64,000 nucleotides of DNA from Gilliamella sp. B3022 (lineage in GTDB: Bacteria > Pseudomonadota > Gammaproteobacteria > Enterobacterales > Orbaceae), in the NCBI RefSeq assembly GCF_028751545.1, contig NZ_CP071867.1, positions 1,771,306 to 1,835,305 on the forward strand. The letters run 5' to 3'. A model generated the notes under the pieces. That model was given only the letters and a program-made list of their open reading frames with translations. It ran no database searches and was not told the origin of the DNA. Positions within the stretch are counted from its first letter, which is position 1, and every line of letters begins with the position of its first letter. The position numbers and the translations under genes are program-made. Shown here piece after piece: positions 42,423 to 61,925 of the stretch.

Positions 42423-42563
42423 TTACTATTCTAGTATCTCTTTCTTTATACAAAAGATATTGATGTTGAATAGTTTAATATCATTTCAATTTATAAGATA
42501 AAAGTTGCTGATACAATATATTGCAAGTAGCTTTTGTTAGTTAGGGGCTCGAACAAAAACGCT

Positions 42564-43868
42564 ATGGCTAATGAACAATTTAAGTTTTCTAACGAGTGGG
42601 GAAAGGTTCGTGATTTAGTATTTCAAGTCCTAGATCTTGATTTAATTGATCAATTTAAAAAAGAACCTAACCGAGTTTTACGTGAAATACAAACTATAAT
42701 CCGAGATATCATCAATTCAGGTAGTGCTTATATTACAGCAGATGAATCAAATGTATTAGCCGGTATGATCTGTGATGAGATCGTGGGTTATGGACCAATT
42801 GACTCTTTAATGAAAGATGAAACGGTTAATGATATTTTAGTTAATGGTCCTGATAGTATTTATATTGAGCGAGGCGGAATTCTTAGTAAAACTGATAAAT
42901 TTTTTATTAGCGAACGACAATTACTAGATATTGCAAGACGACTCGTAAATAAAGTAGGAAAAAATATTGATGAATCGCACCCTTTAGTCGATTCAAGGAT
43001 GCCTGATGGCAGTCGTCTTAATGTTGTTATTCCTCCAATAGCCATTGATGGTACATCAATGTCAATTCGTAAATTCGGTAATGGTCACCGAACATTTCAT
43101 GATTTAATTAAATTCGGTTCATTGAACGAACATATGGCTAATTTTTTAGTGATTGCTGCTCGTTGTCGTATGAATATTATTATATCGGGTGGAACGGGGT
43201 CAGGTAAAACAACAATGCTTAATGCCCTCTCTGGATTTATTGGTGAACATGAACGTACCATCACACTTGAAGACGCCGCAGAATTAAGACTTCAACAAGA
43301 ACATGTAGTTAGAATGGAAACTAAAAGTGGTGGTGAAGATGGGCGTGGCAAAGTAACCATGCGTGATCTCTTAATTAATGCCCTGCGTATGAGACCAGAT
43401 AGGATTATTTTAGGGGAGTGTCGTGGTGAAGAAGCATTTGAAATGCTACAAGCCATGAACACCGGTCATAGTGGTTCAATGTCAACACTTCATGCTAATA
43501 CGGCTAAAGATGCATTAGCGCGTTTGGAAAGTATGATTATTATGGCTCAGTCTGAATTACCTATTGCTGCAATTAAGCGTTACATTAGTTCATCTATAAA
43601 TTTTATTATCCAAGTCTCACGTCTACCCGATGGTCAACGGAAAGTGATGAGTATTACAGAGGTTATTGGATTAGAATCGGGTAATATTGTTACTCAAGAC
43701 GTATTTGAATTTCGCGTTAATGACGAAAGGGATCCTCATGGGAAAATTCAAGGCGAATTTGTTTGTAATGGATTAGTTAAACGTTCAGCTCTTTATGAAA
43801 GTGCTCAATATTATGAAATGTCAAATATTTTAGAAAAACTGATGTTTAGTGCCATGGGAATTGAATAA
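42564..43868 (+). CDS. tadA: Tad pilus assembly ATPase TadA (CpaF)
   Basis: A secretion ATPase of 434 residues from the ATG at 42564; a TTG 10 codons upstream is also open, and neither has a good RBS. Walker A is [10 protein letters not shown] near residue 208, followed by [32 protein letters not shown] (Walker B) and [12 protein letters not shown] (His box). TadA powers both extension and retraction of the Tad pilus from the cytoplasm. It starts the assembly operon, and its stop overlaps the tadB start (TAATG). Confidence 0.95.
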
Positions 43869-44794
43869 TGATTATTATACTTTCGATAGCTCTTATTTTC
43901 GCTGCTCTTATGAACCTTTTTTCATTGCGTCGTCGTAGGGAACGTTTACAGGTTTTCAATAATATTGAACCTAAAAGTATATCATTATCGAACTTGATTG
44001 AAAATCAAGTCCCTGGTCGAGAACAATCTTTTTCAGATCAAGTTGTCTTTGGTATTAACGCTTGGATCAAATTTAATCTTCGTCTATTAATGACGGGACA
44101 ATCAAAATCTAGAACGATAATTTACATTTTAATAGGAACAGTTGCAGGTATTATTTTAAATAAGAAATATGTAGGTTATGACAACTACGTAGTAATCCCT
44201 TTAAGCCTTATTTTTACTATAGCAGTAATTTGTATTTATAGAAAAAAAAGGCTTAAAACAGAGTTTTATAATAATTTTCCAGAAGCATTAAATATTATTA
44301 CAGGTCTTGTTGCTTCTGGTTATGCAATTGCTACAACCTTCAAAACTTGTGGGGCTAATATTGAAGGAGTAGTTGGCAAAACGTTGAAAGAGGTTAGTGA
44401 TAGATTGGAAGTAGGGGATAGCGTCGAAAATGTATTGATCAATTCTTATCTACAGCTTCCTTTTCCTGAATATTATTTTTTTGTTTTAACGGTAATGGTT
44501 AATCTTGATAGTGGTGGCGAACTAAAAGAGATTTTTAGCCGATTAAGTAAAATGTTAACAGACAATCGAATTATGGCTAAAACTAGAGATGGTAAAACGG
44601 CTGAATTAAGAATGACCATGTGGATTTTAGGTGCTATGCCTTTTCTTTTTATTGGACTACTCAGGCTTGTCTCAAAAGAAAATTATAACTTTTTAGTAAA
44701 CACTGATGGGGGTCATTATATTATTTACTATGTTATAGGCAGTGTTGTTATTGGTTTTCTAATTATCAAAAACTGGATTAATAAAATTATTTAA
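43868..44794 (+). CDS. tadB: Tad pilus inner-membrane platform protein TadB
   Basis: A membrane protein of 308 residues with a T2SSF domain in the middle (about 138-265, FPEALNIITGLVASGYAI) flanked by hydrophobic helices at both ends. TadB and TadC together form the platform for Flp assembly. It overlaps tadA by one base and is 3 bp before tadC. Confidence 0.92.
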   Translation: MIIILSIALIFAALMNLFSLRRRRERLQVFNNIEPKSISLSNLIENQVPGREQSFSDQVVFGINAWIKFNLRLLMTGQSKSRTIIYILIGTVAGIILNKKYVGYDNYVVIPLSLIFTIAVICIYRKKRLKTEFYNNFPEALNIITGLVASGYAIATTFKTCGANIEGVVGKTLKEVSDRLEVGDSVENVLINSYLQLPFPEYYFFVLTVMVNLDSGGELKEIFSRLSKMLTDNRIMAKTRDGKTAELRMTMWILGAMPFLFIGLLRLVSKENYNFLVNTDGGHYIIYYVIGSVVIGFLIIKNWINKII

Positions 44795-44797
44795 ATT

Positions 44798-45670
44798 ATG
44801 AATATCTTATTAAATATAACAATCTCGTTCTTTCTTATCGTTGTTGGCTGTAGACAGTTGTTTAATATCTATTTGCTTTATCGCAATCGAGAAAGGGTTG
44901 CTTTACTACTCAATAATGAAAGTCAAGAAAGAAAGTCTTCTAAAAAACGCGTGAATGAGAAAAATATTGCTTTTGAAAAAATTGTTGCAAAAAACAGTGT
45001 ATCTATAAGCTTTTTAAGAAGTTTTCAGGATAAAAATAGCTGGAAAGTTTATGCCATTATTATTGTATTTTCGATTTTTTATTTGATAAATGAAATCTCC
45101 AAACTTATTGAAATTAATCCAAATGTATTATTGATTATTTTGTTATTGATTGTCATTTTTGTCATCATCGTTCCGGATATACTTGTTAAAAGACAAACAC
45201 AAAGACAGATTAAAATTGTTTCACGAGATTTACCTTTGGTTATTGATATGATGGCGATTATGGTTAGATCGGGTATGACAGTCGAAAGTAGTTTTAGATA
45301 TTTAAGTACAAGAGTGAAGCCGATCAATAAAGATATCGCAGCCATTTTAGAAAGAGCTTGTTTAATGATGGATGTTAATGGTATTGAACTTTCAATTGAT
45401 CTAATTCAACGAGAAGTGCCTAGCAAAGAAATGAGAATGTTTTGTGCAACATTAAAAAGAAGTATTAGTTATGGTAACTCAATTTATGATGCTCTGTTAG
45501 ATTTATCAGCAGAGATAAGAGAGATGCAGAGGTTAACGATAGAAGAACAGATTTCTGCGCTTGCTGCTAAGCTGACTATACCAACGATGGTATTTTTTCT
45601 AGCGCCAGTTCTTGTGATCATTGCTGGGCCTGTTTTTATGAATATTGTGTCAACGTTTAATAGGATGTAG
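44798..45670 (+). CDS. tadC: Tad pilus inner-membrane platform protein TadC
   Basis: A protein of 290 residues with an N-terminal helix pair and a T2SSF domain (about 145-270) containing DLPLVIDMMAIMVRSGMTVE. The final helix ends in FNRM. It partners TadB. The gaps of 3 bp to tadB and 5 bp to tadD indicate one transcript. Confidence 0.92.
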   Translation: MNILLNITISFFLIVVGCRQLFNIYLLYRNRERVALLLNNESQERKSSKKRVNEKNIAFEKIVAKNSVSISFLRSFQDKNSWKVYAIIIVFSIFYLINEISKLIEINPNVLLIILLLIVIFVIIVPDILVKRQTQRQIKIVSRDLPLVIDMMAIMVRSGMTVESSFRYLSTRVKPINKDIAAILERACLMMDVNGIELSIDLIQREVPSKEMRMFCATLKRSISYGNSIYDALLDLSAEIREMQRLTIEEQISALAAKLTIPTMVFFLAPVLVIIAGPVFMNIVSTFNRM

Positions 45671-45675
45671 AGATA

Positions 45676-47097
45676 ATGAATTATTTTTCCAGATGCTGTA
45701 AATCAAGTAGGCTATTAGAACCAAAATTTATGGTTGTATGTTCAGTGATACTTTTTATTGTTGGGTGTCAAAATAGTACATTAAAATATGATATGAATGA
45801 ACAACAAAAAATTTATATTAACGAAACAACAAAAAATTATGGTGGTTTAATTGAATTGTATAAACAGCGCTTGAAACGTGAAGATACAGAAGATACAAGA
45901 CATAAACTTGCTAAAGTTTATTATCTTTCTAATGATTTTAATGCTGTGAAAAGAGTTTTGGATCCTATTATAAAAAATACCGAAAATGATGGTATTCTTA
46001 TTTTATACGGTCATGTTGAATCTAGATTAGGTCACAATGATGCGGCATTAAAATATTTAAATAGGGCAATAGAAATCAATAGTAAAAATGGTGAAGCATA
46101 CAATGTAAAAGGTATCGTATTGCTGAAAAAAAAACAATATGATGCTGCAAGATTTGCATTTCATGAAGCTAGAGATAACTTTTATGATGAAAATAAAGTT
46201 ACTAATAATTTAGCAATGCTATCGATCTTAAATAAAGAATACAGCGAAGCTTATAAACAGCTCAATATTTTATATACTAAAGGATATCGAGATCAAACCA
46301 TTCTTCACAATTTACTTTTTACATTAGTAAAGTTGGATAAAATGCAATTAGCTAAGTCATTTTGCGTTGCACATAGACTATCTAATGAACCAGATATCTT
46401 AGTTCAAGAGTTAAGACAAATTGAGCCAATAGAGGCTATTAAGTTTAATGAAGTTAAATCTTCACAAAATGATAATCAAAAACAATACACAATTGAGAAA
46501 GCAGCAGAACAGTTAGCGTCTAATACAAATGCAAAAATTATCCCTATAGATAAAAATACAACTAAATCAATAAAATCAGCTAAGTCAGTCACTCCCGTTA
46601 AGTCAGACTTCAATGCTAAATTAACAAATATGACCAAATTAGATGCGACGGATTCTTCAAAGATGACTAGCTCATCGACTAATGTTCCACCTGTTTCCCT
46701 GAAACAAAATAAACAAACCGTTCAAAAAACATCTACTCAATTGGCTATCTTAGTGGTTCGTTCTGGGGAACATGGAAAGTTTAGTAGGATAACTTTTGAA
46801 ACTGAAAATAAATTAAGTAAAAAAAATTATTCAGTTGAAAAAATTTCTCCTACAGAATTTAAATTGTCATTTTATGGCGTGACGCTTCCTGCTGAGGGAA
46901 TTAATCAAATTATCAAACATATTTCAAGTAGTGATCGCGATTTTGCAACAGTTACAGGAACCTTAACCGCTGAAAAAACATTAATTCTTAAAATAAAAAC
47001 TAAACAAAAATCAATAGTAAAAGATTTTTATGCTGGACCTAATTCTAAAGGGAAAGCTCATTGTTTCGCGTTTGATTTTTATTTAGAAAAGAAATAA
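45676..47097 (+). CDS. tadD: TadD TPR lipoprotein with an extra C-terminal domain
   Basis: A protein of 473 residues. The lipoprotein signal has lipobox IVGC31 after a long, basic leader; a start at the internal ATG (45730) would give a normal leader. TPR-type repeats follow (about 55-205, e.g. ILYGHVESRLGHNDAALKYL). Next come a Lys/Ser/Thr-rich linker (about 270-355) and a C-terminal domain (about 356-473) whose pattern (VVRSGEHGKFSRITFE..Y) recalls AMIN domains. TadD proteins are normally the TPR part only (about 200-260 residues) and help place the secretin. The AMIN reading is a suggestion. Confidence 0.85.
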   Translation: MNYFSRCCKSSRLLEPKFMVVCSVILFIVGCQNSTLKYDMNEQQKIYINETTKNYGGLIELYKQRLKREDTEDTRHKLAKVYYLSNDFNAVKRVLDPIIKNTENDGILILYGHVESRLGHNDAALKYLNRAIEINSKNGEAYNVKGIVLLKKKQYDAARFAFHEARDNFYDENKVTNNLAMLSILNKEYSEAYKQLNILYTKGYRDQTILHNLLFTLVKLDKMQLAKSFCVAHRLSNEPDILVQELRQIEPIEAIKFNEVKSSQNDNQKQYTIEKAAEQLASNTNAKIIPIDKNTTKSIKSAKSVTPVKSDFNAKLTNMTKLDATDSSKMTSSSTNVPPVSLKQNKQTVQKTSTQLAILVVRSGEHGKFSRITFETENKLSKKNYSVEKISPTEFKLSFYGVTLPAEGINQIIKHISSSDRDFATVTGTLTAEKTLILKIKTKQKSIVKDFYAGPNSKGKAHCFAFDFYLEKK

Positions 47098-47144: not shown

Positions 47145-47999
47145 ATGAAAGATAAAAAATTAATTGTTTTATATTTAGCCATGATAGTTGTGGGTCTGGC
47201 CTTACTTTTTACTAAGTCAGCCCCTTCAACTGTTGAGCCACCAGATCCAATAGTGGTGATTGAACCGCCTAAAAAAGAAGAGCCTAAAACTGAGTTCATT
47301 AATGTTGCTGTGGCAAAGCATAATATCGATAAAAAAACAATCTTGACGAAAAATGACTACTATTTTAAATCAATTGAAGTTGCTATTGATAAAGAAAGAC
47401 CTAAGTTTATAACTAATGCGGCTGAAATTGATGCTCATGTTGTAAAAAACCATATTGCTAAAGATACTATATTTGAAGAAAGTCTTATTGTATCCCCAAC
47501 TTCAAAAGATTATGTGATGTTAGCATTAAAAGATGGCAATTATATGTTTCCATTTGCATTAGATCCACTTGATTCTTATTTAGTAAAAAATCTTAAAGAA
47601 GGCGATCTGGTTGATCTTTATGTTTTTTATGCTGATGAAACAGAAAAAGGATCAAATATCAGAGAGAATAAATTTGTTTCCCCTGGTCGTGATTTCATTA
47701 AAAATCGCATAAAACCAATTATTGTTGGCAAGAAAATTTTATTCTTTGATCACGAAGAAGGTTTAGACAAAATTTATAACAAAAATGATGTTCCTAAAAT
47801 TCAACTAGAACTTTCTAATCAGGAAATTAAGTTATTAAGAACATTAATGGCGAACTCAACAATTATTATGTACCCAAGTACTTTCAAAAAAAATGTTGAA
47901 GATGGATTACGTCTCTTAAATGATAAAGAAAAAAATTGGCCTCTATCTGAAAAAGATATTTTTTCAGGAACACGAATTAATTTGTTAAAAGGTAACTAA
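47145..47999 (+). CDS. rcpC: Tad pilus assembly protein RcpC (CpaB)
   Basis: A protein of 284 residues with one N-terminal membrane helix, a Pro-rich stretch (VEPPDPIVVIEPPKKEEP), and a SAF-type beta-clip domain (about 48-115, VAVAKHNIDKKTILTKNDY). A C-terminal RcpC/CpaB domain follows. It is thought to sit in the periplasm and stabilise the secretin RcpA, encoded 2 bp downstream. Confidence 0.9.
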   Translation: MKDKKLIVLYLAMIVVGLALLFTKSAPSTVEPPDPIVVIEPPKKEEPKTEFINVAVAKHNIDKKTILTKNDYYFKSIEVAIDKERPKFITNAAEIDAHVVKNHIAKDTIFEESLIVSPTSKDYVMLALKDGNYMFPFALDPLDSYLVKNLKEGDLVDLYVFYADETEKGSNIRENKFVSPGRDFIKNRIKPIIVGKKILFFDHEEGLDKIYNKNDVPKIQLELSNQEIKLLRTLMANSTIIMYPSTFKKNVEDGLRLLNDKEKNWPLSEKDIFSGTRINLLKGN

Positions 48000-48001
48000 G
48001 A

Positions 48002-49435
48002 ATGCTAATAAGAACTAAATCAATTATTAAAGTGCTCAAACCTCTAATCTGTTTATTATCTATTGGTTTTTCTTCATTGGCTTTTGCTAATATTCACAAT
48101 TTACAAATCGGACAAAGTAAAACACTAGTGTTGCCAGAAAATGTCGGGACCGTTTTTATTAGCCAAGACAGTATAGCAAATTATGAGGTTGTTGGTAGTA
48201 AATCACTGATTATATATGGAAAATCAAACGGAAGGGCAAGTTTAATTGTTTATGATAGCGATAATAATATCATTATTAATGACACTATTAATGTCGATCC
48301 GCTTTTATATCAAATTACAAATCGATTAGCGCAAAATTTTCCAAATAGTAATGTAACAATCGATCGTTATGATAGTGGGGAGTTAAATAGTAAATTTGTG
48401 TATATATTATCAGGTACTGTACCAGATACTACAACAAAAGGTAAAATTTTGGCCCTTATAGGGTCTTCAATTGGGCAAAATGCAGAACGGATTAGAGCGG
48501 AATACAATAGTGAAGGGAGCTCTGGAGGGATTCCTATTACATTCCAAGATTATTATACTTACAGCAATATAATCGATAATATCAGAGTAATACAAGAATA
48601 TCAGGTTAACGTGCAATTAACGTTCGTTGAAGTTAGCAAGGATTTCACAGATTCCCTAGGTATTGAATGGCAAAGTTTGACCCTCGACAGCATGATAAAT
48701 AATGAATCTGTTGTCAACTCTATTGGTGAGTTTTCACTATTAGGCATAAAAAAAGGATTAAACATACATAATATAACCACCATGATCCGTGCCGTAAAAA
48801 ATGATCGTTTGGCTAAAGTATTAGCTCAGCCTAATTTATCTGTGCTCTCTGGTGAAACTGCATCGTTTTTGGTCGGAGGTGAGATTCCTATTGTAACTAA
48901 AAACAAAGATGGCGATGCTAATGTGACTTATAAAGAATATGGTATTAAGTTAAACATTAGTACAAAAGTAAATAATGATAAACGTATAAGATTATTCATG
49001 GAAAATGAAGTGAGCTCAGTTTCTGGTTCGTACGCTTTTAATAACTATAATATTCCTACGTTGTCATCTCGAAGAACAAGATCCACTATTGATTTATCTG
49101 ATGGTGATAGTTTTGTCATTGCGGGATTAATTAATGAAAATGATCAGGAGCAATTATCTCGTCTTCCTTTTATTAGTGATATTCCAATTTTGGGTGCACT
49201 AGCGCGAAGTTCAACAACGAGTCGTTCTAAATCCGAGATGGTAGTTTTTGCAACAGTGAATTTAGTAACACCAAAAAATAGTTTTGATAGTATTGAATTA
49301 CCAACTATAGAGCGGACTGATGTAATCAATAGTTTCTTTAATATTAAAAACAATATTAATAAGCAAAGAAATAAGACAGTACCAGCTTCTAACGAAAGTG
49401 AAAAATTTATTAATGACATGGGCTTTATTGAATAA
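48002..49435 (+). CDS. rcpA: Tad pilus secretin RcpA (CpaC)
   Basis: A protein of 477 residues with a signal peptide ending near SSLAFA. An N-terminal pilus-secretin domain (QIGQSKTLVLPENVGTVFIS), a BON-like region and the secretin pore (about 225-430) follow, with KVLAQPNLSVLSGETASFLVGGEIPI and RLPFISDIPILGALARS. It forms the outer-membrane pore for the Tad pilus. No rcpB gene follows it, unlike in Aggregatibacter; the next gene is tadZ. Confidence 0.95.
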   Translation: MLIRTKSIIKVLKPLICLLSIGFSSLAFANIHNLQIGQSKTLVLPENVGTVFISQDSIANYEVVGSKSLIIYGKSNGRASLIVYDSDNNIIINDTINVDPLLYQITNRLAQNFPNSNVTIDRYDSGELNSKFVYILSGTVPDTTTKGKILALIGSSIGQNAERIRAEYNSEGSSGGIPITFQDYYTYSNIIDNIRVIQEYQVNVQLTFVEVSKDFTDSLGIEWQSLTLDSMINNESVVNSIGEFSLLGIKKGLNIHNITTMIRAVKNDRLAKVLAQPNLSVLSGETASFLVGGEIPIVTKNKDGDANVTYKEYGIKLNISTKVNNDKRIRLFMENEVSSVSGSYAFNNYNIPTLSSRRTRSTIDLSDGDSFVIAGLINENDQEQLSRLPFISDIPILGALARSSTTSRSKSEMVVFATVNLVTPKNSFDSIELPTIERTDVINSFFNIKNNINKQRNKTVPASNESEKFINDMGFIE

Positions 49436-49453: not shown

Positions 49454-50626
49454 ATGCAATTATTTGGAAATATAAAAGATACAGATACATCAACAAATTC
49501 TCCTTCACAAGAATTCGTTGTTGGAAGAATATCTGGCTATAAAGTAGCTATTGTAAGTAAAAGAACTGAATTAATTGAAAAAGTTCGTTCTGTACTATTT
49601 CTATATAACATATTGGGTATGGAGATTATTTCATTAACATTATCTGAGTTAAAAGAAACGCCAAATTGGAATCAGTTTGATGCAGTTATTATAGACATTC
49701 AAAATGCTGATGATGCTGAACAAATAACAGAAAATATCAATCGTTGTATTCCTATTCAAGCGACAACAGTACTTATAGGTAGTTATGATTCAATTCAGTT
49801 CTCTGAATTTTTATTAAAAAAAGGAATATATTTCTTATTGGAAAATAGTCAATTAGAAAAAATTCCAGATATTTTACATAAAAGAAGCATGACACCTCCA
49901 GGTTCAAGTCAAAGAGTAGGAAGTGTTATTACCTTCTTAGGTTGTAAAGGCGGAATTGGAACTTCATCATTGGTAGTTCATACACTCAAGAAAATTAGTG
50001 ATTTAACCAATTACCCACTTCTTTATATACAAGGTGCAACAACAAGCTCTAATGCGGATTTTTTGTTTGAAATGCCAATACCTGATGATGGTTCATTAAT
50101 TGATGTTGGAAATTCTTTGCAGGTTAAAGTAGAAACTAATGAAAAAGCATGGAACTATAAAGACCTCCATTCTGGTGAATTCAACATTACTATTATTGAT
50201 CAGAATATGGGATTATCTTCATCATTCAAACATTTTGAAGAAATAATAACGTTTTCTAACATTATTTTTATTGTAATAAATAGAGATCCCTATTCTATTA
50301 AAGTGGCTAAGAAGATGCTAACAGAAATCACGCGCGCCAGTGCCACAAATTTTGATTTACTCAACAAGCGTTTTTTAATTTGTCTCAATGATGATATTCC
50401 TTATGATAAAAAAAATGCTTTGCGTGATTCAGATATTGAAGATTTTTTAGAACGGAAAATTGACTTTACTCGTAAATTTATACCAAGTATTGATAAATTT
50501 AAGAAAGCAAGTGATAGTGCAGAAATAAAAGAAATAGCCGCTGCTATTATTGGCAATAAAGTAATGAATGATGATCAACAGAAAGCTTTTTTTTCTTTAT
50601 TAAGAAAAAAGAAAAATCATTTTTAA
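49454..50626 (+). CDS. tadZ: Tad pilus localisation protein TadZ (CpaE)
   Basis: A protein of 390 residues with an atypical receiver-like domain (about 28-150) and a MinD/ParA-type ATPase domain (about 155-380). The Walker A region reads GCKGGIGTSSLV, which lacks the second Lys of the classical GKT. The deviant MinD lysine (KGG) is kept. TadZ marks the pole or assembly site and recruits TadA. A weakened nucleotide site is common in TadZ proteins. Confidence 0.88.
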   Translation: MQLFGNIKDTDTSTNSPSQEFVVGRISGYKVAIVSKRTELIEKVRSVLFLYNILGMEIISLTLSELKETPNWNQFDAVIIDIQNADDAEQITENINRCIPIQATTVLIGSYDSIQFSEFLLKKGIYFLLENSQLEKIPDILHKRSMTPPGSSQRVGSVITFLGCKGGIGTSSLVVHTLKKISDLTNYPLLYIQGATTSSNADFLFEMPIPDDGSLIDVGNSLQVKVETNEKAWNYKDLHSGEFNITIIDQNMGLSSSFKHFEEIITFSNIIFIVINRDPYSIKVAKKMLTEITRASATNFDLLNKRFLICLNDDIPYDKKNALRDSDIEDFLERKIDFTRKFIPSIDKFKKASDSAEIKEIAAAIIGNKVMNDDQQKAFFSLLRKKKNHF

Positions 50627-50645: not shown

Positions 50646-51137
50646 ATGTTGAAATATTGGGAATTTTTTTTTAGACAAAAAAATGGAGTTGTTTCAATAC
50701 AATTTGCCATTATTTTTCCTTTTTTACTTATTCTTTTTTTGTTGGCGTTTGAATTTAGCCGAGTTATGATTATTGGCTCGGCTTTAGATTTAATGACTAC
50801 TGAAATAACAAGGCAGGTAGCCATCACAGAAGAAGACGATTATGCTGAGAAAATCGAAGATTTAATTCAATCTGAAGTTCCTTTATGGCCTTATGTCGCT
50901 AATCCTGATCATTTTGAAGTTTCTGTAAAGTATTGTAAAAAAATAAACGACATCATCAGTAACAATTGTCAAACAACACTTTCTGATGAAACCAACTTAT
51001 TGCTATTTGATTTGAAATATCAATATTCAGTTATATTTTCTGAGTTTTTTAGTTTTCTTGACACCGCATTGGCCAGAAAAACTGTCGTTTACCGTGAGTT
51101 TATTAAAAGTGAAATGGAAAACAAAGGAAATTGGTAA
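50646..51137 (+). CDS. tadE: TadE-like minor pseudopilin
   Basis: A protein of 163 residues with the prepilin-like site G14-VVSIQFAIIFPFLLILFL. The +5 position is Gln where Glu is usual in TadE and pilins. A single helix is followed by a soluble domain with two cysteines (KYCKK and NNCQT). TadE and TadF are processed by TadV and act as minor pilins. It is 2 bp before tadF. Confidence 0.87.
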   Translation: MLKYWEFFFRQKNGVVSIQFAIIFPFLLILFLLAFEFSRVMIIGSALDLMTTEITRQVAITEEDDYAEKIEDLIQSEVPLWPYVANPDHFEVSVKYCKKINDIISNNCQTTLSDETNLLLFDLKYQYSVIFSEFFSFLDTALARKTVVYREFIKSEMENKGNW

Positions 51138-51139
51138 TA

Positions 51140-51895
51140 ATGAAAGATTCTAAAAACTTTTTCCATAATAAAGATGGAGCATTGTCAATTGAGTTTGCAT
51201 TTTGTTTCATATTGTTTTCACTCATAGTTTTCATTATTTATGATGTGTACACAACTATTATGTTACAAAATAAAATAGAACGCGCAAATTATACTGTAGC
51301 ATCAGTTTTTCGTGAAAGATCAACTTTGTATAAAGATAAAGTCAAACGAGCTGGGGAGGTCCTTTCCGCAGGTTTATGTGCCAATAGAAATGCTTGTTAT
51401 ATTTCTAGTGAATTATTTGATTCACAACAAGTCAATGAGATGAGTAAATTAGCAAGCTCATTATTGAATAATCGTGAAGTTGCTTTACAAATAGAGGCTC
51501 TGTTTATTTTACAAGATCCCGATAATATTGAAGATTTGGAAAAAGCCAAATTAGTAACTTATGGAAAAAAAATTCTATCTTGTTCTAAAGGTACATGTGG
51601 TAATAATTCAATTAAAAGCTATTTTAATTCTTTACCAGCCATGGACGATCCTTCAAATAATTACCAACAACTTGCTCCTTATGCCCAAAAATTTGTAGAT
51701 TCATCAAATATGTTGAGTGGGCGTTGGATTCCTTTATATCGGGTTTCAATGTGTATTGTCAATGAAGACAGCCTTTTTTTAAATTTGGTAAATCATACTG
51801 GACAAAGCTCAGATGGTATCGTACCAAATCTATGTAGTAACGTTGTTGTGTTGTCACGTTGTAACAATTCAAGAATTTGTCCTACTTATTATTAA
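51140..51895 (+). CDS. tadF: TadF-like minor pseudopilin
   Basis: A protein of 251 residues from the ATG at 51140; a TTG three codons earlier is open but overlaps tadE. The N-terminus has a G13-ALSIEFAFCFILFSLIVF prepilin-like site with Glu at +5. The soluble part has several cysteines (LCANRNACYIS, CSKGTCG, CIVN, LCSN, RCNNSRICP), suggesting disulfides. It lies between tadE and tadG. Confidence 0.85.
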   Translation: MKDSKNFFHNKDGALSIEFAFCFILFSLIVFIIYDVYTTIMLQNKIERANYTVASVFRERSTLYKDKVKRAGEVLSAGLCANRNACYISSELFDSQQVNEMSKLASSLLNNREVALQIEALFILQDPDNIEDLEKAKLVTYGKKILSCSKGTCGNNSIKSYFNSLPAMDDPSNNYQQLAPYAQKFVDSSNMLSGRWIPLYRVSMCIVNEDSLFLNLVNHTGQSSDGIVPNLCSNVVVLSRCNNSRICPTYY

Positions 51896-51916: not shown

Positions 51917-53908
51917 ATGAACAATAATAGCCAATTAATTATAAGAAATCATAAAGATTCTTTTTTCAAGTGTACTTCTGGAGCAGTAGCAATATCTATG
52001 GCAATTATGCTCCCTGCTATCTTTACTTGTGTGGCATTTTCAATTAATCAAGCATACACTATGCGCAATCGGGCTAAGATATCTGAGGCTACTAATGAAG
52101 CATCATTAGCGGTGATAGCTATAGATAACAGAAATGTTGATGATAAAGCAAAAAAACAAAATCGAAAAATCGCATTGAATTATATTAATTATTTCATTTC
52201 TAAAAAAATTGGTGATCACTCTGTGTCAGATGCAAATTTATTAGAACCGGGGTCCAAAATTAAAATAGATTATAATGGAGATAAAGAGGAATATTATATC
52301 GCCTATAACCAAGCGTTTAACGAATTTACTGAGATTAAACTTCATGATGGTCAACAACCTCAGCCAATTGTTGTGGGTAATAAAACAGAAAGCTATGGGA
52401 ATACTAGAAAATATCTAATTCGAGATTCATTTGATTTCGCTTTTATCAGCGATTTTTCTTCTTCATCAACATGTCAATATAGTAATGTAAACTGTAATAA
52501 TTATTCTTCAAATAATAATGCTCAGCGACGTCTTGACTATATGAAAGAGGCAATAACAGACATTATTGAAAAATATAAAGATTATCCAGAATACCAATTT
52601 GCATTAGTGCCCTATGATATTGGTGTCCCAGTAGAAAGCCAAACTAAGAATGCAGCTGGGGGGCAAAGTTATGATTGTTCTGTTATGTATAAACTGAACC
52701 AACCTTATAATTCTATCGATTATAATTTTTGGGCAAACAAAAATATTGGGTTTACAAAATGGAGTAAACTGAAAAAAGATAAAGTTATTACAGATTATTT
52801 GGATAAAAATAATTATTTTCCTAAGCATAGAAAATTGTTAACTTACTATATGGATAGTTCTTATTATAACTATTATGCACAAATAATTGGACCTGCATTA
52901 GGTTTAGAATATGGTAATAATCAAGCATTAGTTGATGCTGGTTTATGTAGTTTGAGAACTGATTATCAAGATCGAATTGAAAATGGTTTACATGAATATG
53001 CTTGTGGCACAGACAGAAAAGATCATCCAGAAAAAAATAGAGTCCTCATAAATACTCAATATGCTGCAGTGGTTCAAATGTTTGATTACATGTTCTCAGG
53101 AAATTATAAAGATGTACATTATTCATTTGCTAACACTAAAACAGTAGATGTAGAAGGTACTATTGATACTTTATTCAGCGATACAAAGAAAAATATTATA
53201 ACATTTGAGCGTCCTATTTCACCTGTACTTGCGGAATTTTCACCTTTTATGGGCATGTGTCAATCACCGTTATACAGTAATAATCTTATGAATAAAAAGA
53301 TGATTCGTGAAAGAACGGTAACGGATGATATGTATAAAGAAATAGCAGAAGGAAAATATGTTAAGAACTTTGAATCTGCCCCTCATTTAATCCCTTTCAG
53401 TGATGATAGAGATCATAATAATAATATTTTAACAAGTATAAAAAAGACAAATTGGATGCCAGGGGGAGGTACTGACACCATAACAGCATTATTGAGAACC
53501 GTTCCTGTAATGGCTAAAGGTAATGGCAACAATAAAGTTATGATTATTATTAGTGATGGTAAAGATGATACCGGTGCAGGTGTTCTTAGAGATGATTTTT
53601 TAGATAAGGGTGTTTGTCAGGCAATAACATCAGGATTAAGAGATAAGAAGAATTTTGATAAAGGTTATCTTACAAATCAGGCTAAAAGTGCAATTATTTA
53701 CTATATAAAATTAAATCCTAATGCGAGTAATTTAACAACTGATGCTCAATATGAAGCTGAGTTCGGTAAGTGGTTTACTAAATGCATGAATGGTAACCCA
53801 ATATTCTTAATGGAGGCAAAAGATAGGAAGTCTTTGACCGCTGTAATAAGTAAAGTCATTGGAATTGAAACTGGAAAATTCATCAAAAAAAATCAGAATG
53901 AATATTAA
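51917..53908 (+). CDS. tadG: TadG-like pseudopilin with a von Willebrand factor A domain
   Basis: A protein of 663 residues. The N-terminus is TadE/TadG-like: G22-AVAISMAIMLPAIF, with Ser at +5. A vWA domain follows with the MIDAS motif D179-F-S-S-S, a later GGGTDT (about 517) and VMIIISDGKDD (about 543). About 330 residues lie between the first two metal-site parts, so the fold has a large insert. vWA domains bind ligands through a metal ion. This gene and the propeller gene 27 bp downstream are both plausible adhesive or tip parts of the pilus. Confidence 0.88.
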   Translation: MNNNSQLIIRNHKDSFFKCTSGAVAISMAIMLPAIFTCVAFSINQAYTMRNRAKISEATNEASLAVIAIDNRNVDDKAKKQNRKIALNYINYFISKKIGDHSVSDANLLEPGSKIKIDYNGDKEEYYIAYNQAFNEFTEIKLHDGQQPQPIVVGNKTESYGNTRKYLIRDSFDFAFISDFSSSSTCQYSNVNCNNYSSNNNAQRRLDYMKEAITDIIEKYKDYPEYQFALVPYDIGVPVESQTKNAAGGQSYDCSVMYKLNQPYNSIDYNFWANKNIGFTKWSKLKKDKVITDYLDKNNYFPKHRKLLTYYMDSSYYNYYAQIIGPALGLEYGNNQALVDAGLCSLRTDYQDRIENGLHEYACGTDRKDHPEKNRVLINTQYAAVVQMFDYMFSGNYKDVHYSFANTKTVDVEGTIDTLFSDTKKNIITFERPISPVLAEFSPFMGMCQSPLYSNNLMNKKMIRERTVTDDMYKEIAEGKYVKNFESAPHLIPFSDDRDHNNNILTSIKKTNWMPGGGTDTITALLRTVPVMAKGNGNNKVMIIISDGKDDTGAGVLRDDFLDKGVCQAITSGLRDKKNFDKGYLTNQAKSAIIYYIKLNPNASNLTTDAQYEAEFGKWFTKCMNGNPIFLMEAKDRKSLTAVISKVIGIETGKFIKKNQNEY

Positions 53909-53930: not shown

Positions 53931-53939
53931 ATGAAATGA
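53931..53939 (+). other. Two-codon mini-ORF overlapping the propeller gene start
   Basis: AGGAG at 53921-53925 is 5 bp from an ATG that reads Met-Lys-stop (ATGAAATGA). Its stop overlaps the real ATG at 53936. This could lower or couple translation of the propeller gene. Confidence 0.35.
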
Positions 53940-55366
53940 AATCAATAAGAATAATAGTGATGTTTTTGACTTACTTTTGTCTTCCTGCTATAGCCCATTC
54001 AGAAACTGATGCTGTAATATTATCAACCCAAACAGGCGTGAAAGCAACTACACGCCTAAACCTGATACATACAGGGGTTACTGTTGAAAATGGTGATGTT
54101 TGGGTTTGGGGTTATAGAAATCAGGGGCTGCAAGGTAATGGTGTTTCGTTCGTTCACTGGAGGAGTGTGCCGGCGAGAGTACAAAAATTCGTTGATGAAG
54201 GGCTTACTATAATGCAAGTTGCAGCAGGAAGATATCATATTATTGCACTTGATGAAAATGGTGACGTATGGGGTTGGGGCCGTAATTATAACAGACAAGC
54301 AACAGGTGGAGTGGGAACCGATTCCATTTTTGTGGCCACACCTGTCAAAGTTTTATCTGGTAAAAGGGTTATCGATATCTTTTGTAACGAATATACATCT
54401 TATGCTTTAACTGCTTCGGGCGATGTTTGGGTTTGGGGAAGAGGAAATCTTGGTGAAACAGGACTTAACAATTTACAATTTAAACAAAAACTCCAACAGA
54501 TTCCATCAAGTTTTTTTAACGACAGCCGAGTGAGAACAATGGGTGTTGGTTATCGAAGTGCTTATGCTATTACTCGTTCTGGAACTATATTTGCTTGGGG
54601 CGTTACTGTAAGCAATAAATTCTGTCCAGAAAATCAGAGATCTTGTGTTTATTCCATTAAACCAGTAAGGATTAATAATGCTTTAGTACAATCTAATTCA
54701 GGTATTTCTTCTGGTCAATCTATAAAACAAATTACAGGTGGTTATGGTTTTTTGACTTATTTAACCTATGAAGGTGAAGTTTTTGGAATGGGGAACACTT
54801 TATATTTACCCGATGGCAAATTAAATGAAAATATTAATGAAGAGGATGATGATGATGAAGAATGGAATGATAATGGTGAAACTGAACACATAGAAAATGA
54901 AGATGAAGATGAGAAAGATGCTGAGGATGATAGAAAAGATCCAATCAACATAACTGAAAGTCCTATACCTATCCTAGGTAAAAGTGCAGCAAGTGAAAAA
55001 GCGGCTGCACACTCAATTTATTGTCGTTATCGTGGATGTGTTGCTATTACAAAACATAAAAGTTTACTAACATGGGGTATAAAAGGTTGCAGTCGTTTAA
55101 ATGAGATACTTTATGGTAAAAAGTTAATTGGTTCGGTAGTGCAAAGAAAACTTAATGGAATATTGACTAAATTTGATGGGGGCATGGAATTTTTATTTTA
55201 TTGGAATGAAGATGGTGATGTTTATGGTGTAGGTAATGGCTGGTATTATAAATTAGACCAATCTAGTGTCCTTGACCGAGATTGGACTGCGCCAAGAGTG
55301 GAATTTTTGATGAATGCTATGCACGATGTTTACGGTAAAGATCATGTTTTAGGACAAGTACAGTAA
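53936..55366 (+). CDS. Secreted RCC1-like seven-bladed beta-propeller protein in the tad operon
   Basis: A protein of 476 residues with a signal peptide ending near LPAIAHS. Seven RCC1-type strands can be seen: GDVWVWG (53-59), GDVWGWG (109-115), GDVWVWG (162-168), GTIFAWG (216-222), GEVFGMG (280-286), SLLTWG (376-381) and GDVYGVG (427-433). This is the number of blades in a complete propeller. A strongly acidic insert (about 298-335, rich in Asp and Glu) lies after blade five. Six cysteines remain in the mature part. It is not a known core Tad component, but it lies 27 bp after tadG and overlaps tadV by one base. A surface or tip adhesin role is an inference. Confidence 0.8.
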   Translation: MKSIRIIVMFLTYFCLPAIAHSETDAVILSTQTGVKATTRLNLIHTGVTVENGDVWVWGYRNQGLQGNGVSFVHWRSVPARVQKFVDEGLTIMQVAAGRYHIIALDENGDVWGWGRNYNRQATGGVGTDSIFVATPVKVLSGKRVIDIFCNEYTSYALTASGDVWVWGRGNLGETGLNNLQFKQKLQQIPSSFFNDSRVRTMGVGYRSAYAITRSGTIFAWGVTVSNKFCPENQRSCVYSIKPVRINNALVQSNSGISSGQSIKQITGGYGFLTYLTYEGEVFGMGNTLYLPDGKLNENINEEDDDDEEWNDNGETEHIENEDEDEKDAEDDRKDPINITESPIPILGKSAASEKAAAHSIYCRYRGCVAITKHKSLLTWGIKGCSRLNEILYGKKLIGSVVQRKLNGILTKFDGGMEFLFYWNEDGDVYGVGNGWYYKLDQSSVLDRDWTAPRVEFLMNAMHDVYGKDHVLGQVQ

Positions 55367-55821
55367 TGATTAATCAAGAATTATTTAATGACACTATTAT
55401 TTTAACTGTTTGGTTGTGTTTGTTGATTTCTTGTTATACGGATATAAAATATCGAATAATTTCAAACTATATTGTCATAGTTATATTTGCTTTGGCGATG
55501 TTAAATTATGCTTTTGGTCTTGGGGCACTAAATTATGGTGCGTCTGGAATATTTTTAGTTTGTGGTTTATTGATGTTTTATTGCCAAATTGCAGGTGCTG
55601 GAGACATAAAATTAATTACTGTACTTTTGATAACTGTTCCTACAAGTAGCATAATGTTTTTCTTAGCAGTGACTACATTTTTAGGGTTACCTCTGGTAAT
55701 CATTGCAATTATATATAAATGGTTAAAAAAAATAGAGGGTGGTATTACATTACCTTATGGTGTTGCAATTACAGGTGGTTATATCTTGACTTCTTTAACT
55801 TTCTTTAAAGTATTAATTTAG
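55366..55821 (+). CDS. tadV: Tad prepilin peptidase TadV (CpaA)
   Basis: An inner-membrane aspartic protease of 151 residues. The two catalytic Asp are D26 in SCYTDIKYRIISN and D80 in the GAGD motif (77-80). It lacks the N-terminal methylase domain of PilD, as TadV proteins do. It cleaves Flp, TadE and TadF after the leader Gly. It ends the operon rather than following the flp genes, as it does in Aggregatibacter. Its ATG overlaps the propeller stop (TAATG). Confidence 0.93.
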   Translation: MINQELFNDTIILTVWLCLLISCYTDIKYRIISNYIVIVIFALAMLNYAFGLGALNYGASGIFLVCGLLMFYCQIAGAGDIKLITVLLITVPTSSIMFFLAVTTFLGLPLVIIAIIYKWLKKIEGGITLPYGVAITGGYILTSLTFFKVLI

Positions 55822-56870: not shown

Positions 56871-59800
56871 ATGAATAAAGTATACAAATTAGTTTGGAAT
56901 GCTAGACGTAAAGCTTTCATTGTTACATCAGAAAAGGCGCAATCAAAAGGTCGATTATTTTTAGTTAATTTATTATCTGTAGCCAGTTTAACTATGGCAA
57001 TGATACCCATTAGTAATGCGCAATGTACAGACTCTTCTCTTAACAATAATCGTTGCATCCCAAAAATTACTCAACACTATTCAAATCAAACTTTATTAAG
57101 TTCACAACGTAGTGATTATCTAAATCATTTGTTGAGTGCTACACAGCGTAAGAACTCTGTTGAGATATCGATTCCACACCATGTTGAATCTAATGACGAC
57201 GGTTATTCTTATACAAGTGATGCTAATGTTGATAACTTAATTATAAATCAACCTGCTGGTGATATTATCGGAGAAAAAAATGGTATTAATATTAATCATA
57301 ATGGTACCGGTTCGACCAATATTTCAATTGGAGGTGATGTAACAGGTAAACAAAATGATGGTATTTATGCTTCAAACTCAATTAATGCTCAAGACTTAAA
57401 TATTATAGAGATTGTTGGAGCCGATATTCATGGTAAATTAAATGGAGTTAATGTTGCTAATAATGGGAGAGGAATAACAACAATAACAACTTCTGATTCT
57501 GTTGTTGGAGAAGAAAATGATGGTATTGTTGTAGTAAATAACGATGATTCTAAAAGTATTAAAGTTACCCAATCAGCAGGAAGCATACATGGTAAAAAAA
57601 ATGGTATCAATATCATCAATAGAGGTAAAGAAGATACAAATATCTCAACAGTAGGGAAAGTTATTGGCGATGAAAATGAAGGGATAAATGCTCTCAATGA
57701 ACAAAATGCAGATAATATGACTATTGAACAAAATAGTGGTTCTATTAGTGGTTATTTAAATGGGATCAAAGCTAATAACTTGGGTAATGGGTCGACTGCT
57801 ATTACTACTTCAGCCAAGGTTATTGGGGAAAATAATGATGGGATATTTGTTAATAATAACAGTAATACGAAAGATTTATCGGTCACCCAAACTAATGGTT
57901 CAATTAATGGAGAGTTAAACGGAATCAATGCCAACAATAGTGGTAATGGAGTAACTATTGTAACCACTTCAGGAACGGTTACTGCTAGTGAGCAAAATGG
58001 TGTGAGTATTAACAATTATGCCAATACTAAAAAATTAACTTTCAACCAATTAAAAGGCAGTATTACGGGTAAACAATATGGTATCAATATTGTAAATAAT
58101 GGTAATGGATTAACATCTATTAATAGTTATGGTAATGTCGAAGGACAACAAAAAGATGGTATATTTGGTATTGGTGGTATAAATACGAGCGATTTAAACG
58201 TCAGTCAATCTACAGGTAGTATAAAAGGCGAGCTCAACGGTATTAATATGACTAACCAGGGAAACGGTTCAACCTTAATTACGACTAATGGTGAAGTGAC
58301 AGGTCATCAAAATGATGGGATATATGCTGTTAATGAAGTGAATACTCATGAACTGACAATTAATCAATCTGCTGGCAATATTAATGGCCTATCAAATGGT
58401 ATAAATATTAACAACAAAGGTAATGGATCAACGATTGTTAGCACATCTGGCGATATTACAGGCGAAAATAATTATGGGATTAGAGCTGTTAATGAAACTA
58501 ATACTAAAGACCTTAATATTCGTCAACCAGCAGGTAATATTCATGGCAAGCTTGATGGTATTAATGTAGAACATAAAGGCGCAGGTGCAACAACTATCGC
58601 CACTTCCGGACAAGTGATTGGCGAACAAGAAAATGGAATCTATGCCATCACTCAAATTAACACTAAAAATTTAACAGCTAAACAATCATCTGGTTATATT
58701 GTTGGTAAAAAAAATGGTATTTACTTTAATAATCTAGGAAATGGTTCAACTTTCATCAACACTGCTGGACATGTTATAGGTAACGAAAATGAAGGAATAC
58801 TTGTTAATAACGAAACTCATAGTCTGGATGTTAATTTAATGCAAACCGCTGGTAGTATAAAAGGTAATTTGAATGGAATTAATATTAGCAATGAAGGAAA
58901 GGGTTCTACAGCAATAACAACTTCAGATGAAGTTATTGGAACAAAAAACAATGGTATAACTGCTGTTAATGAACAAAATACCCGAGATCTAGCTGTTTCT
59001 CAGTTAAGTGGTAATATTCAAGGTTTACAATATGGTATTAATATGATTAATAATGGTAAAGGTGCCACATCTATTAATACATCAGGAAATGTTATTGGCA
59101 AACTTAATGATGCTATTTATGCGTTTAATAACGTCAGTAGTACAGATTTTAAAATTAGCCAATTAGAGGGTGAAATCAACGGTAAACATAATGGTATGAC
59201 TCTTGAAAATAATGGGCAAGGTTTAACATCTATTACTACTTTAGGTAAGATAATGGGTGATGAAGGGGATGGAATAGTTGCAACGAATAATACTAACGCT
59301 AAGGATCTCAATATAATTCAATCCGGTGGTGAAATTAAGGGTAACAATCATGGCATTAATCTAGTTAACAATGGTCAAAGATCCACCATAATTAGTATAG
59401 CTGGAAAAGTTATTGGCAACCATGATGATGCTATTATAGCCATAAGCCAATCATCAACGAATAACTTATTGTTTGGACAAACAAAAGACAGTGAAATAAT
59501 TGGTAACCTTAATAGTGTTAATCTTGCTAATCATGGACAAGGTTCAACGGGGCTTAAAGTAGCAGGTAAAATAGTTAGCCAAACTTTAGATGCCATAATT
59601 GCTTTTAATGATACTGATGCTAATAATCTAACATTTAGACAAGAATCTGATAGTGAAATCCAAGGTGCTAAAAATGGCATTAATTTCACTAATCAAGGAG
59701 ATGGTTTTACCCGTATTTTGAGTGAAGGTAAGATTACTGCTTATAACGGCTCAGCAATCTTAGTCTCTAATGATGATTCAACCTCAGATTTACTAGTAAA

Positions 59801-61925
59801 CCAAACAAATGGCATCATTAATGGTTATGATAATGGTATTAAAGTAACCAATAACGGTACCGGAAGCACTCAGATTAACATATTTGGTAAGGTAATCGGA
59901 CAAAATGATGAATCAGGAACTGGTATTTATACCGCAGGTAAAGAAGGTTTAAAAACCTATATAAATTTAAATAAGGGTGCAGATGTCTCATCAGCTAGTG
60001 ATCTCGCAATAAAAAATGAAATTACAGATTCAATTATTTCTCTTAATGACGGTTCTAAAATCAGTGGTCAAATTAGACTTGGGAATGGGAACGATACATT
60101 ATTTATTAATGAAGGAGCAAATATATCAGAACTAACCGTGATAGATAGCGGTAATAAATTGACACGTGTAGATGGATCGTCTGATAATGATACTCTTAAT
60201 CTTAATGTTCATCTTATCGGCTCATCAACATCTAGCGGGTCGATTGGTAATGTATCAATTGTTGGATGGGAAAATATTAATCTGAGTCAGATTGGTAGTT
60301 TAACATTAACAGGTGATTTAAACACTGATAAATTAACTCTTGATTCAGGCTCAATTGTTGATCTTCAATCGAGTGTACATCAATCGCAAATTAGTGGAAG
60401 TGTTTATAATGGAGGAACTATTACACTTGGTAATGCATTTGCAGGCGACAGATTAATTATTGCTGGTGATTATATTGGAAACAAGGGAAAATTGGTACTT
60501 GATACCGTTGTTCAAAATAGTAATAGTCCAACAGATCGATTATTAGTAAATGGTAATGTATCAGGGAACACAGTCATACAAATCAATAATATTAACGGAT
60601 TGGGTGCTGATACCAGTTATACTGATGGCATTGAATTAGTCCACGTTAATGGATTAAGTAGTAATGACGCATTTAAAATGCAAGAAGATCATTTAGATGT
60701 TGGTGCATATGAGTATTATTTGCATAAAGGCGATCTTAAAAACCAAAATAATAACTGGTATTTACGTTCCTATTTACCTAAAGACCCAACAGACCCAACA
60801 GACCCAACAGACCCAACAGACCCAACAGACCCAACAGACCCAACGAACCCAACGAACCCAACGAACCCAACGAATCCAACGAATCCAACGAATCCAACAC
60901 ATCCAATCGATCCATTAGAGCCAACCGATCCTGCTATTGATCCTGAGCCAGAAAAACCTGTTACACCAACTGGAGTAAAAACTTATCGTAAAGAAGTTCC
61001 TATGTTTGGCGCAATTGCAAAACAACTCCGATTAGCGGAAAATATTATGCAAAGTAATTTACATCAACGTATTGGTAATATGCCATTATTAGATTCGCCA
61101 ATAAGTTGGGGAAGAATCATCACCAAACGTATTGATTTGAAACAAAATGGTATTACCAATCCTCGAAGCAAAGGAAACTATACTGGTTTTCAATTAGGAA
61201 GTGATCTTTGGCAAGAGGATAACTGGCGATTAGGTACTTATTTTGGTTATTTGTACGGTAATTTAACCGTTGATGGATTTGCCAGTGGTCGAAATGGGCA
61301 AGTAGGTAAAAATGGCATAAATTCCTACTTTTTAGGAGTTTATAGTACCTATATGCAAGACGATGGTACTTATCTTGACCTTGTTTTACAAGGAGCTCGT
61401 CATCGTGTAGATGTCAAACCTGATAGTAATAAAAATAGCAAACAAAAAAGTTATGGCTTAAGTGCATCAATCGAAACAGGTAAACCATTTATCTTATCGG
61501 ATAATGGCTGGAAGTTTGAACCGCAAGCTCAAATCATTCATCAATGGCTTGATATGCATGATAGTCATATTAGTGGCAATACTAAAGTAAAGCATCGTGA
61601 TAATAATGCTTGGTTGTTTAGAATTGGTACTCGTTTTGAAGGGAATTTCAAAATGAACGATGCATTATTACGACCTTATGCTCGTGTTAACTTATTCTAC
61701 TCACCAAGTGGTGCTGATCATGTGACATTTGCTAATAAAAATGCTGCTACGGAATTTAGCAATGGTGCTAAATATTTAAGTTCTGAAATGGCAATCGGTG
61801 GCAGTTATGAAATGAATAATCAATTCAGCGCTTATACAGAAATCGGTCATACATGGACAAATGGTGGAGCTGCAAGAGTCAAAGCACCGATTAGTGCATC
61901 TGTTGGTATTAGGGCGAATTGGTAA
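56871..61925 (+). CDS. Large type Va autotransporter with 53-residue passenger repeats
   Basis: A protein of 1684 residues. An extended signal peptide begins MNKVYKLVWNARRKAF and ends near ISNAQ. The passenger (about 115-970) holds about 16 tandem repeats of 53 residues with the pattern GNGST-ITTSG-VIG-NDGI-AVN-NTKDL-I-Q-GSI-G-LNGIN, as expected for a beta-helix. A non-repeated, pertactin-like part leads to a Pro-rich linker of DPT and NPT triplets (about 1304-1350). The C-terminal beta-barrel (about 1385-1684) ends SVGIRANW with an aromatic last residue. GGAGG lies 5 bp before the ATG. No protease motif was seen in the passenger, so an adhesin or biofilm role is likely. Confidence 0.9.
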   Translation: MNKVYKLVWNARRKAFIVTSEKAQSKGRLFLVNLLSVASLTMAMIPISNAQCTDSSLNNNRCIPKITQHYSNQTLLSSQRSDYLNHLLSATQRKNSVEISIPHHVESNDDGYSYTSDANVDNLIINQPAGDIIGEKNGININHNGTGSTNISIGGDVTGKQNDGIYASNSINAQDLNIIEIVGADIHGKLNGVNVANNGRGITTITTSDSVVGEENDGIVVVNNDDSKSIKVTQSAGSIHGKKNGINIINRGKEDTNISTVGKVIGDENEGINALNEQNADNMTIEQNSGSISGYLNGIKANNLGNGSTAITTSAKVIGENNDGIFVNNNSNTKDLSVTQTNGSINGELNGINANNSGNGVTIVTTSGTVTASEQNGVSINNYANTKKLTFNQLKGSITGKQYGINIVNNGNGLTSINSYGNVEGQQKDGIFGIGGINTSDLNVSQSTGSIKGELNGINMTNQGNGSTLITTNGEVTGHQNDGIYAVNEVNTHELTINQSAGNINGLSNGININNKGNGSTIVSTSGDITGENNYGIRAVNETNTKDLNIRQPAGNIHGKLDGINVEHKGAGATTIATSGQVIGEQENGIYAITQINTKNLTAKQSSGYIVGKKNGIYFNNLGNGSTFINTAGHVIGNENEGILVNNETHSLDVNLMQTAGSIKGNLNGINISNEGKGSTAITTSDEVIGTKNNGITAVNEQNTRDLAVSQLSGNIQGLQYGINMINNGKGATSINTSGNVIGKLNDAIYAFNNVSSTDFKISQLEGEINGKHNGMTLENNGQGLTSITTLGKIMGDEGDGIVATNNTNAKDLNIIQSGGEIKGNNHGINLVNNGQRSTIISIAGKVIGNHDDAIIAISQSSTNNLLFGQTKDSEIIGNLNSVNLANHGQGSTGLKVAGKIVSQTLDAIIAFNDTDANNLTFRQESDSEIQGAKNGINFTNQGDGFTRILSEGKITAYNGSAILVSNDDSTSDLLVNQTNGIINGYDNGIKVTNNGTGSTQINIFGKVIGQNDESGTGIYTAGKEGLKTYINLNKGADVSSASDLAIKNEITDSIISLNDGSKISGQIRLGNGNDTLFINEGANISELTVIDSGNKLTRVDGSSDNDTLNLNVHLIGSSTSSGSIGNVSIVGWENINLSQIGSLTLTGDLNTDKLTLDSGSIVDLQSSVHQSQISGSVYNGGTITLGNAFAGDRLIIAGDYIGNKGKLVLDTVVQNSNSPTDRLLVNGNVSGNTVIQINNINGLGADTSYTDGIELVHVNGLSSNDAFKMQEDHLDVGAYEYYLHKGDLKNQNNNWYLRSYLPKDPTDPTDPTDPTDPTDPTDPTNPTNPTNPTNPTNPTNPTHPIDPLEPTDPAIDPEPEKPVTPTGVKTYRKEVPMFGAIAKQLRLAENIMQSNLHQRIGNMPLLDSPISWGRIITKRIDLKQNGITNPRSKGNYTGFQLGSDLWQEDNWRLGTYFGYLYGNLTVDGFASGRNGQVGKNGINSYFLGVYSTYMQDDGTYLDLVLQGARHRVDVKPDSNKNSKQKSYGLSASIETGKPFILSDNGWKFEPQAQIIHQWLDMHDSHISGNTKVKHRDNNAWLFRIGTRFEGNFKMNDALLRPYARVNLFYSPSGADHVTFANKNAATEFSNGAKYLSSEMAIGGSYEMNNQFSAYTEIGHTWTNGGAARVKAPISASVGIRANW
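60782..60903 (+). repeat. 9-bp tandem repeat coding the DPT/NPT linker
   Basis: About six units of ACAGACCCA are followed by four of ACGAACCCA and three of ACGAATCCA. The unit is a multiple of three, so slippage would change linker length without breaking the frame. Confidence 0.9.

Follow-up and report, generated by a model that had tools for sequence, protein, structure and literature searches.

A gene for an RCC1-like beta-propeller protein lies within the tad pilus operon of Gilliamella sp. B3022, in a window (the whole stretch of DNA analysed) of 64,000 nt on the forward strand of NZ_CP071867.1 (GCF_028751545.1; 1,771,306 to 1,835,305). The gene is genuine and belongs to the Orbaceae Tad locus as an accessory member, being present in every family genome in which TadF and TadG were found. 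We give a probability of about 0.6 to the reading that its product forms part of the tip of the Gilliamella Tad pilus, as an accessory subunit exposed at the surface. The tip localisation and the ligand binding of this protein are proposed from pilin-RCC1 fusions, operon position, and evolutionary rate, the adhesive function being less certain than the tip position. Among the open-licence PMC papers searched, no earlier account of an RCC1 propeller encoded together with tad genes was found.

The propeller protein and its occurrence in Tad loci

The gene lies where an earlier note on this DNA had placed it, between tadG and tadV. The end of tadG (53908) is 27 bases upstream, and the TAA stop codon shares its last A with the ATG of tadV at 55366 (a 1-base overlap), within a tadG-tadV gap of 1457 bp. 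Three curated Pfam families match its product above their cut-offs, namely WD40_RLD (152.5 bits, cut-off 150), RCC1_2 (85.9, cut-off 22), and RCC1 (51.4, cut-off 21.7), while NCBIfam assigns it no name. The predicted structure is a closed seven-bladed propeller, as the earlier note had expected, with blades at residues ~46–433, and a fold search with this model returns RCC1-like propellers, the best solved eukaryotic folds showing ~22% identity. Both the Pfam matches and the seven closed blades of the prediction are those of the RCC1-like domain (RLD) fold. The seven GDVWxWG-type strands reported previously can all be read (within residues 46–60, 99–117, 152–170, 206–224, 270–288, 365–382, and 417–434), three of them being good matches and four degenerate as judged by eye. 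This gene holds the only PF00415 match in the Gilliamella sp. B3022 genome.

The N-terminus, already noted as an export signal, has a basic start followed by a hydrophobic stretch from residue 6, with a Sec/SPI cleavage site at about residue 21 and no lipobox (both judged by eye). A hydrophobic segment near the start is common to all 22 unfused tad-linked RCC1 sequences aligned (an alignment that left out the Budvicia fusions, two non-tad copies of G047, a doubtful-start copy of G039, and duplicate rows). Because of this signal, a cytoplasmic location of the protein appears unlikely. The pilin-type N-terminus that marks Tad minor pilins is absent, its place being taken by the Sec-type signal, and Pfam detects no vWA domain in the protein; such a domain is carried by the adjacent TadG. 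Homology to PilY1 is ruled out, since its propeller domain PF05567 is not among the Pfam families listed with E up to 1. A chance or mis-called open reading frame (ORF) is also ruled out, by the Pfam cut-offs, the structure prediction, purifying selection, and conserved synteny. A recent eukaryotic transfer is not supported, as judged without a deep tree, given the close relatives in bacterial tad loci and the low identity to solved eukaryotic folds mentioned above. Between blades 5 and 6, the protein holds an acidic insert, which measures 45–58 residues in eight Gilliamella loci (including that of the window); the other 14 aligned sequences have a short one or none. These eight inserts are alike in composition, not in sequence, and possibly represent a metal-binding or charge patch.

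Among 44 Orbaceae genomes searched with the window protein (E up to 1e-5), 22 show RCC1 matches. TadF and TadG are both found in 21 genomes, the same ones, and a tad-locus RCC1 gene is present in 21/21 of them versus 0/23 of the remainder (Fisher p 5e-13, phylogeny ignored), a co-occurrence that spans five genera. Nineteen of the 21 hold the gene or a remnant of it in the tadG-tadV interval, in the same orientation, which is the site where the earlier note had suggested looking for it in relatives, and in the other two (G041 and G043) it adjoins tadV on the opposite strand. Its ORF is full length in 18 and broken in three. Three tandem copies separate tadG from tadV in G001, and G039 has one copy on either side of tadV. 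The search with TadG found one in-frame stop each in G026, G002, and G040, although TadG spans 660, 645, and 663 residues, respectively, in their ORF lists.

The 22nd match (G030, L059:6594-8255) is an RCC1 propeller protein whose gene follows others resembling phage-tail genes, with products that match Tail_spike_N above and Phage-tail_3 below the respective cut-off, and perhaps represents a phage receptor-binding protein. A chaperone-usher locus, suggested by gene sizes, is rejected in view of those two matches. Another propeller resembling those of the tad loci forms part of a 1393-residue protein of G002 (L058:5073-9254) with a HEFGHAIAHE metalloprotease-like motif and a weak vWA match; two proteins encoded upstream of it (706 and 711 residues) have similar weak M78 matches. 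Tad is not universal in Orbaceae: the 23 family genomes in which neither TadF nor TadG was found fit an analysis of stingless-bee gut bacteria, Orbaceae included, which reports no Tad pili in them (PMC10128065).

Outside the family, the gene is rarely linked to tad. Of 295 genomes sampled evenly across the order, 54 have RCC1-like matches (E up to 0.001) and 46 have TadF, 33 of the latter being outside Orbaceae. Only one of these 33 (G047, L090) has an RCC1 gene inside the tad locus, on the opposite strand, a call made by coordinates, for which contig ends could hide further cases. This census rules out that the protein is a general Tad part, and agrees with the earlier placement of the gene outside the Tad core set. 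The description of RCC1 as unusual in such an operon holds for its linkage to tad, but not for the fold itself, considering the 54 genomes above and the 7–24 RCC1-repeat genes present in each genome of bee-gut bifidobacteria (PMC4449606). G047 encodes additional RCC1 proteins with hydrophobic N-termini outside its tad locus (L095:6957-8522 and L096:6195-7373). In G091, an RCC1 gene ~17 kb from a TadF gene was not counted, the checked genes between them encoding DsbD, ApbE, thioredoxin-like, and DUF proteins. For the RCC1 matches of Fulvimonas (L038) and a Saccharibacterium (L039), no BLAST match to the window tad proteins was found within ~21 kb. On the other hand, Limnobaculum allomyrinae (L036) and G323, whose protein is 92% identical, hold an RCC1 gene directly 3' of tadG, and a family-level sample of 60 genomes around the former (G317) gave three matches, in G317, G323, and G322.

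The latter genome and Budvicia hold proteins in which such a propeller is joined to a pilin-type segment. In Budvicia (L037), tadE and tadF are followed, at the place expected for tadG, by genes for two fusion proteins of 599 and 585 residues, and a third fusion of 555 residues is encoded in G322 (L105:5648-7315). All three start with a GxxxIMYAxLLP pilin-type segment and end with an RCC1 propeller. The complete, vWA-bearing TadG of G047 matches the starts of the fusions with E values of 6e-13, 3e-12, and 1e-11 (TadG residues 12–178 at most), and a profile comparison between the N-termini of TadG proteins and those of the fusions gives 94.6% probability (E 7e-8, 51 columns). Pfam TadE matches two of the three below its cut-off (2.4e-4 and 0.0063). 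In the model of the 599-residue protein (pLDDT 63.7, pTM 0.62), an N-terminal helix of 42 residues and a strand hairpin precede the RCC1 propeller. The fusions thus have RCC1 in place of the vWA head of TadG. A tblastn search of plasmids with a Budvicia fusion gave seven records, none covering 80% of the query and all below 60% identity.

The propeller protein also diverges the most of the operon proteins compared within the genus. Twelve operon proteins, with the Flp pilins left out, were compared in same-genus loci (the tadA ORF was not found in three stretches), and the RCC1 protein showed the lowest identity in 10/10 loci. Its genus-level distances, with a mean of 0.84 versus 0.58 for the next fastest gene, follow those of the rest of the operon (r=0.92). 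The ratio of nonsynonymous to synonymous substitution rates (dN/dS) is below 1 in all five pairs. RCC1 has the highest ratio of the genes compared in three of them (0.38–0.40), whereas the two closest, with RCC1 values of 0.26 and 0.13, do not show this. Across the 22 aligned sequences, strands vary less than loops, with mean entropies of 1.16 and 1.84, respectively.

Role at the pilus tip and rival explanations

In the proposed mechanism, the Sec machinery would export the RCC1 protein into the periplasm, where it would dock on the TadE/F/G minor-pilin complex before assembly, probably through the vWA part of TadG. Carried on the end of the Flp fibre as this grows, it would then pass the RcpA secretin and present a variable binding head at the tip. 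A glycan or surface of the host (insect gut) would be the most likely target of this head, and retraction would draw the cell in. The logic of PilY1 would thus be split between two proteins, with the vWA in TadG and the propeller in the next one. The tip position is supported, indirectly, by the Budvicia pilin-RCC1 fusions, the parallel with PilY1, and PilX2, a pilin with an RCC1 propeller.

Several observations weigh against this proposal. With a Sec-type signal instead of a pilin N-terminus, the protein would need a docking step to enter the fibre. The gene is broken or partly deleted in G014 (L057), G019 (L094), and G026 (L093), with tadG-tadV gaps of 1222, 1205, and 694 bp for G014, G019, and G026, respectively. 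To judge from the ORF lists, the tad genes next to it are not shortened, so that pilus genes can persist without RCC1. A second TadF/TadG pair of G037 has no RCC1 match beside it, and four of the 23 family genomes without TadF are less than 90% complete. Among the non-Orbaceae genomes with TadF, 12/33 have an RCC1-like match, inside the tad locus only in G047. Neither TadF nor a separate TadG-like match was found in the G322 genome, where the fusion gene lies beside TRAP-transporter genes, meaning that such fusions can also occur where no Tad system is detected. Other tad loci of Budvicia hold additional TadF genes and TadG-like matches, so that the fusion need not be the sole tip protein there. 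Finally, RCC1 is the least similar protein in only one of seven loci of other genera, and family-wide its distances show the lowest correlation with those of the remaining operon among the ten genes compared (r 0.78).

The Sec-type signal without a pilin N-terminus is what a periplasmic assembly or gating factor would be expected to have, that is, a propeller that scaffolds the minor pilins, the secretin, or the prepilin peptidase and stays inside the cell. The overlap with tadV, which suggests coupled synthesis, and the co-inheritance with the Tad machine also fit this explanation. Nevertheless, we regard it as rather improbable, because an internal part is not expected to be the fastest-diverging operon gene compared within the genus, loci with a broken RCC1 gene keep tad genes of apparently full length, and the Budvicia fusion puts such a propeller on a TadG-type pilin. 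That same fusion bears on a somewhat less probable alternative, in which a soluble protein would be secreted by way of a dock at the pilus tip, as with TcpF on the minor pilin TcpB, and would act at a distance from the cell. The covalent link between the propeller and the pilin-like part in Budvicia speaks instead for a role on the fibre.

An incidental position, with an unrelated secreted protein riding in the operon, would be compatible with the lineage restriction of the linkage, the three broken genes, and the pilin-RCC1 fusion of G322, where no TadF was detected. It is considered very improbable in view of the strict co-occurrence with tad over five genera, the linkage also seen in Limnobaculum and G047, and the fusions themselves. 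RCC1-repeat effectors exist in intracellular bacteria, and the fold of the protein would suit a eukaryote-like effector that mimics the RCC1/Ran exchange factor activity in host cells; this is the most improbable of the explanations considered.

A broader proposal can be made, although tentatively and with slightly less than even odds: Tad pili of the Orbaceae and Budvicia type may have re-created the PilY1 design independently, with the TadG vWA and RCC1 forming a composite, force-bearing tip head. The propeller would be an exchangeable element of this head, either docked or fused in replacement of the vWA, and could be multiplied (three tandem copies in G001, two fusions in Budvicia) to change host tissue specificity. 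This would represent a second, independent origin of the vWA-plus-propeller arrangement, in another pilus class. The tip proteins of retractable pili decide what is bound, and few are known for Tad beyond TadG/CpaL and the Kil tips. A lineage-wide propeller partner offers a concrete candidate for niche recognition by bee-gut Orbaceae. In Frischella perrara, a member of the same family in which gene deletion works, deletion of the Flp-pilin gene pilE resulted in the loss of pili, and the mutant had the strongest colonisation defect among the deletion strains tested (PMC10104596).

Layout of the tad locus

The tad-locus genes of the window, from the Flp pilins through tadV, are all on the + strand, in the order five Flp genes, tadA, tadB, tadC, TPR, rcpC/cpaB, rcpA, tadZ-like, tadE, tadF, tadG, RCC1, and tadV (see the table). 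The five Flp genes stand in tandem in a low-GC stretch, and the fourth and fifth differ by one residue, with the third closely similar to them, which looks like a recent amplification of the major pilin. The TadG product shows MIDAS-like motifs, DFSSS at residue 179 and GGGTD at residue 516. About 1 kb past tadV starts a gene (56871-61925, + strand) for a 1684-residue autotransporter adhesin with ESPR, AC_1, and Autotransporter domains, whose passenger is long and made of repeats and which also contains a (DPT)n/(NPT)n linker.

Table. Features of the tad locus, in window coordinates
Feature	Coordinates	Strand	Basis and remarks
Five Flp pilin genes	38637-38846, 39276-39497, 39992-40210, 40704-40922, 41426-41644	+	Pfam Flp_Fap: four above cut-off, first below
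tadA ATPase	42534..43868	+	NCBIfam TadA family ATPase 1.5e-93, 313.7 bits, below cut-off 373
tadB	43868-44794	+	Position and synteny; no NCBIfam match over cut-off
tadC	44798-45670	+	Position and synteny; no NCBIfam match over cut-off
tadD-like TPR protein	45676..47097	+	Pfam TPR families
rcpC/cpaB	47145..47999	+	NCBIfam pilus_cpaB 4e-8, below cut-off
rcpA secretin	48002..49435	+	Pfam Secretin 1.4e-39, T2SS-T3SS_pil_N 7.2e-14
tadZ-like	49454..50626	+	Position, length, synteny; no useful Pfam/NCBIfam match
tadE minor pilin	50646..51137	+	Pfam TadE 8.8e-7
tadF minor pilin	51131..51895	+	TTG start as listed; Pfam TadF 5.2e-15
tadG	51917..53908	+	Pilin-like N-terminus and vWA; Pfam VWA_2 7.6e-8 (residues 488-549), Tad 0.075, below cut-off
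RCC1 propeller gene	53936..55366	+	476 aa; ORF, Pfam, structure prediction, fold search
Acidic insert, blades 5/6	54815..54946	+	Residues ~294-337; alignment and composition; pLDDT <50 at 294-337
tadV prepilin peptidase	55366..55821	+	Pfam Peptidase_A24 2.1e-11

Comparison with known systems

A close parallel is found in PilY1/PilC of type IVa pili, which, like the system proposed here, combines a seven-bladed propeller with a vWA domain, joined to it in part of the family (PMC13190605), and acts with minor pilins at the tip (PMC13190605, PMC12607857). In the window, however, the vWA (in TadG) and the propeller are encoded by separate adjacent genes, the propeller is of the RCC1 type, and the pilus is a Tad/Flp one. 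An RCC1 propeller of a pilus system is also known from PilX2 of Saccharibacteria, a minor pilin of T4aP-type pili with a C-terminal seven-bladed RCC1 propeller (PMC12206443); the window protein has no pilin part, whereas its Budvicia relatives do.

Among Tad pili, the vWA minor pilin CpaL/TadG can be modelled at the tip together with CpaJ and CpaK (PMC12607857, PMC13170226). Its N-terminal pilin module is common to the Budvicia RCC1 fusions, although it holds a vWA instead of RCC1, and its gene lies just upstream of the RCC1 gene here. The tips of the Kil Tad pilus of Myxococcus are interchangeable, and tailored complexes of minor pilins of this kind have been suggested to exist elsewhere among bacteria (PMC12075869). 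Neither RCC1 nor a propeller is mentioned in the main text of this study, but the principle is the one proposed here, in which Tad pili are customised through minor-pilin complexes with variable exposed domains. Finally, the RCC1-repeat proteins of bifidobacteria from the same bee-gut habitat bear surface domains of ~7 repeats, thought to be diversified by duplication, and differ in being LPxTG-anchored to a Gram-positive wall, without a pilus (PMC4449606).
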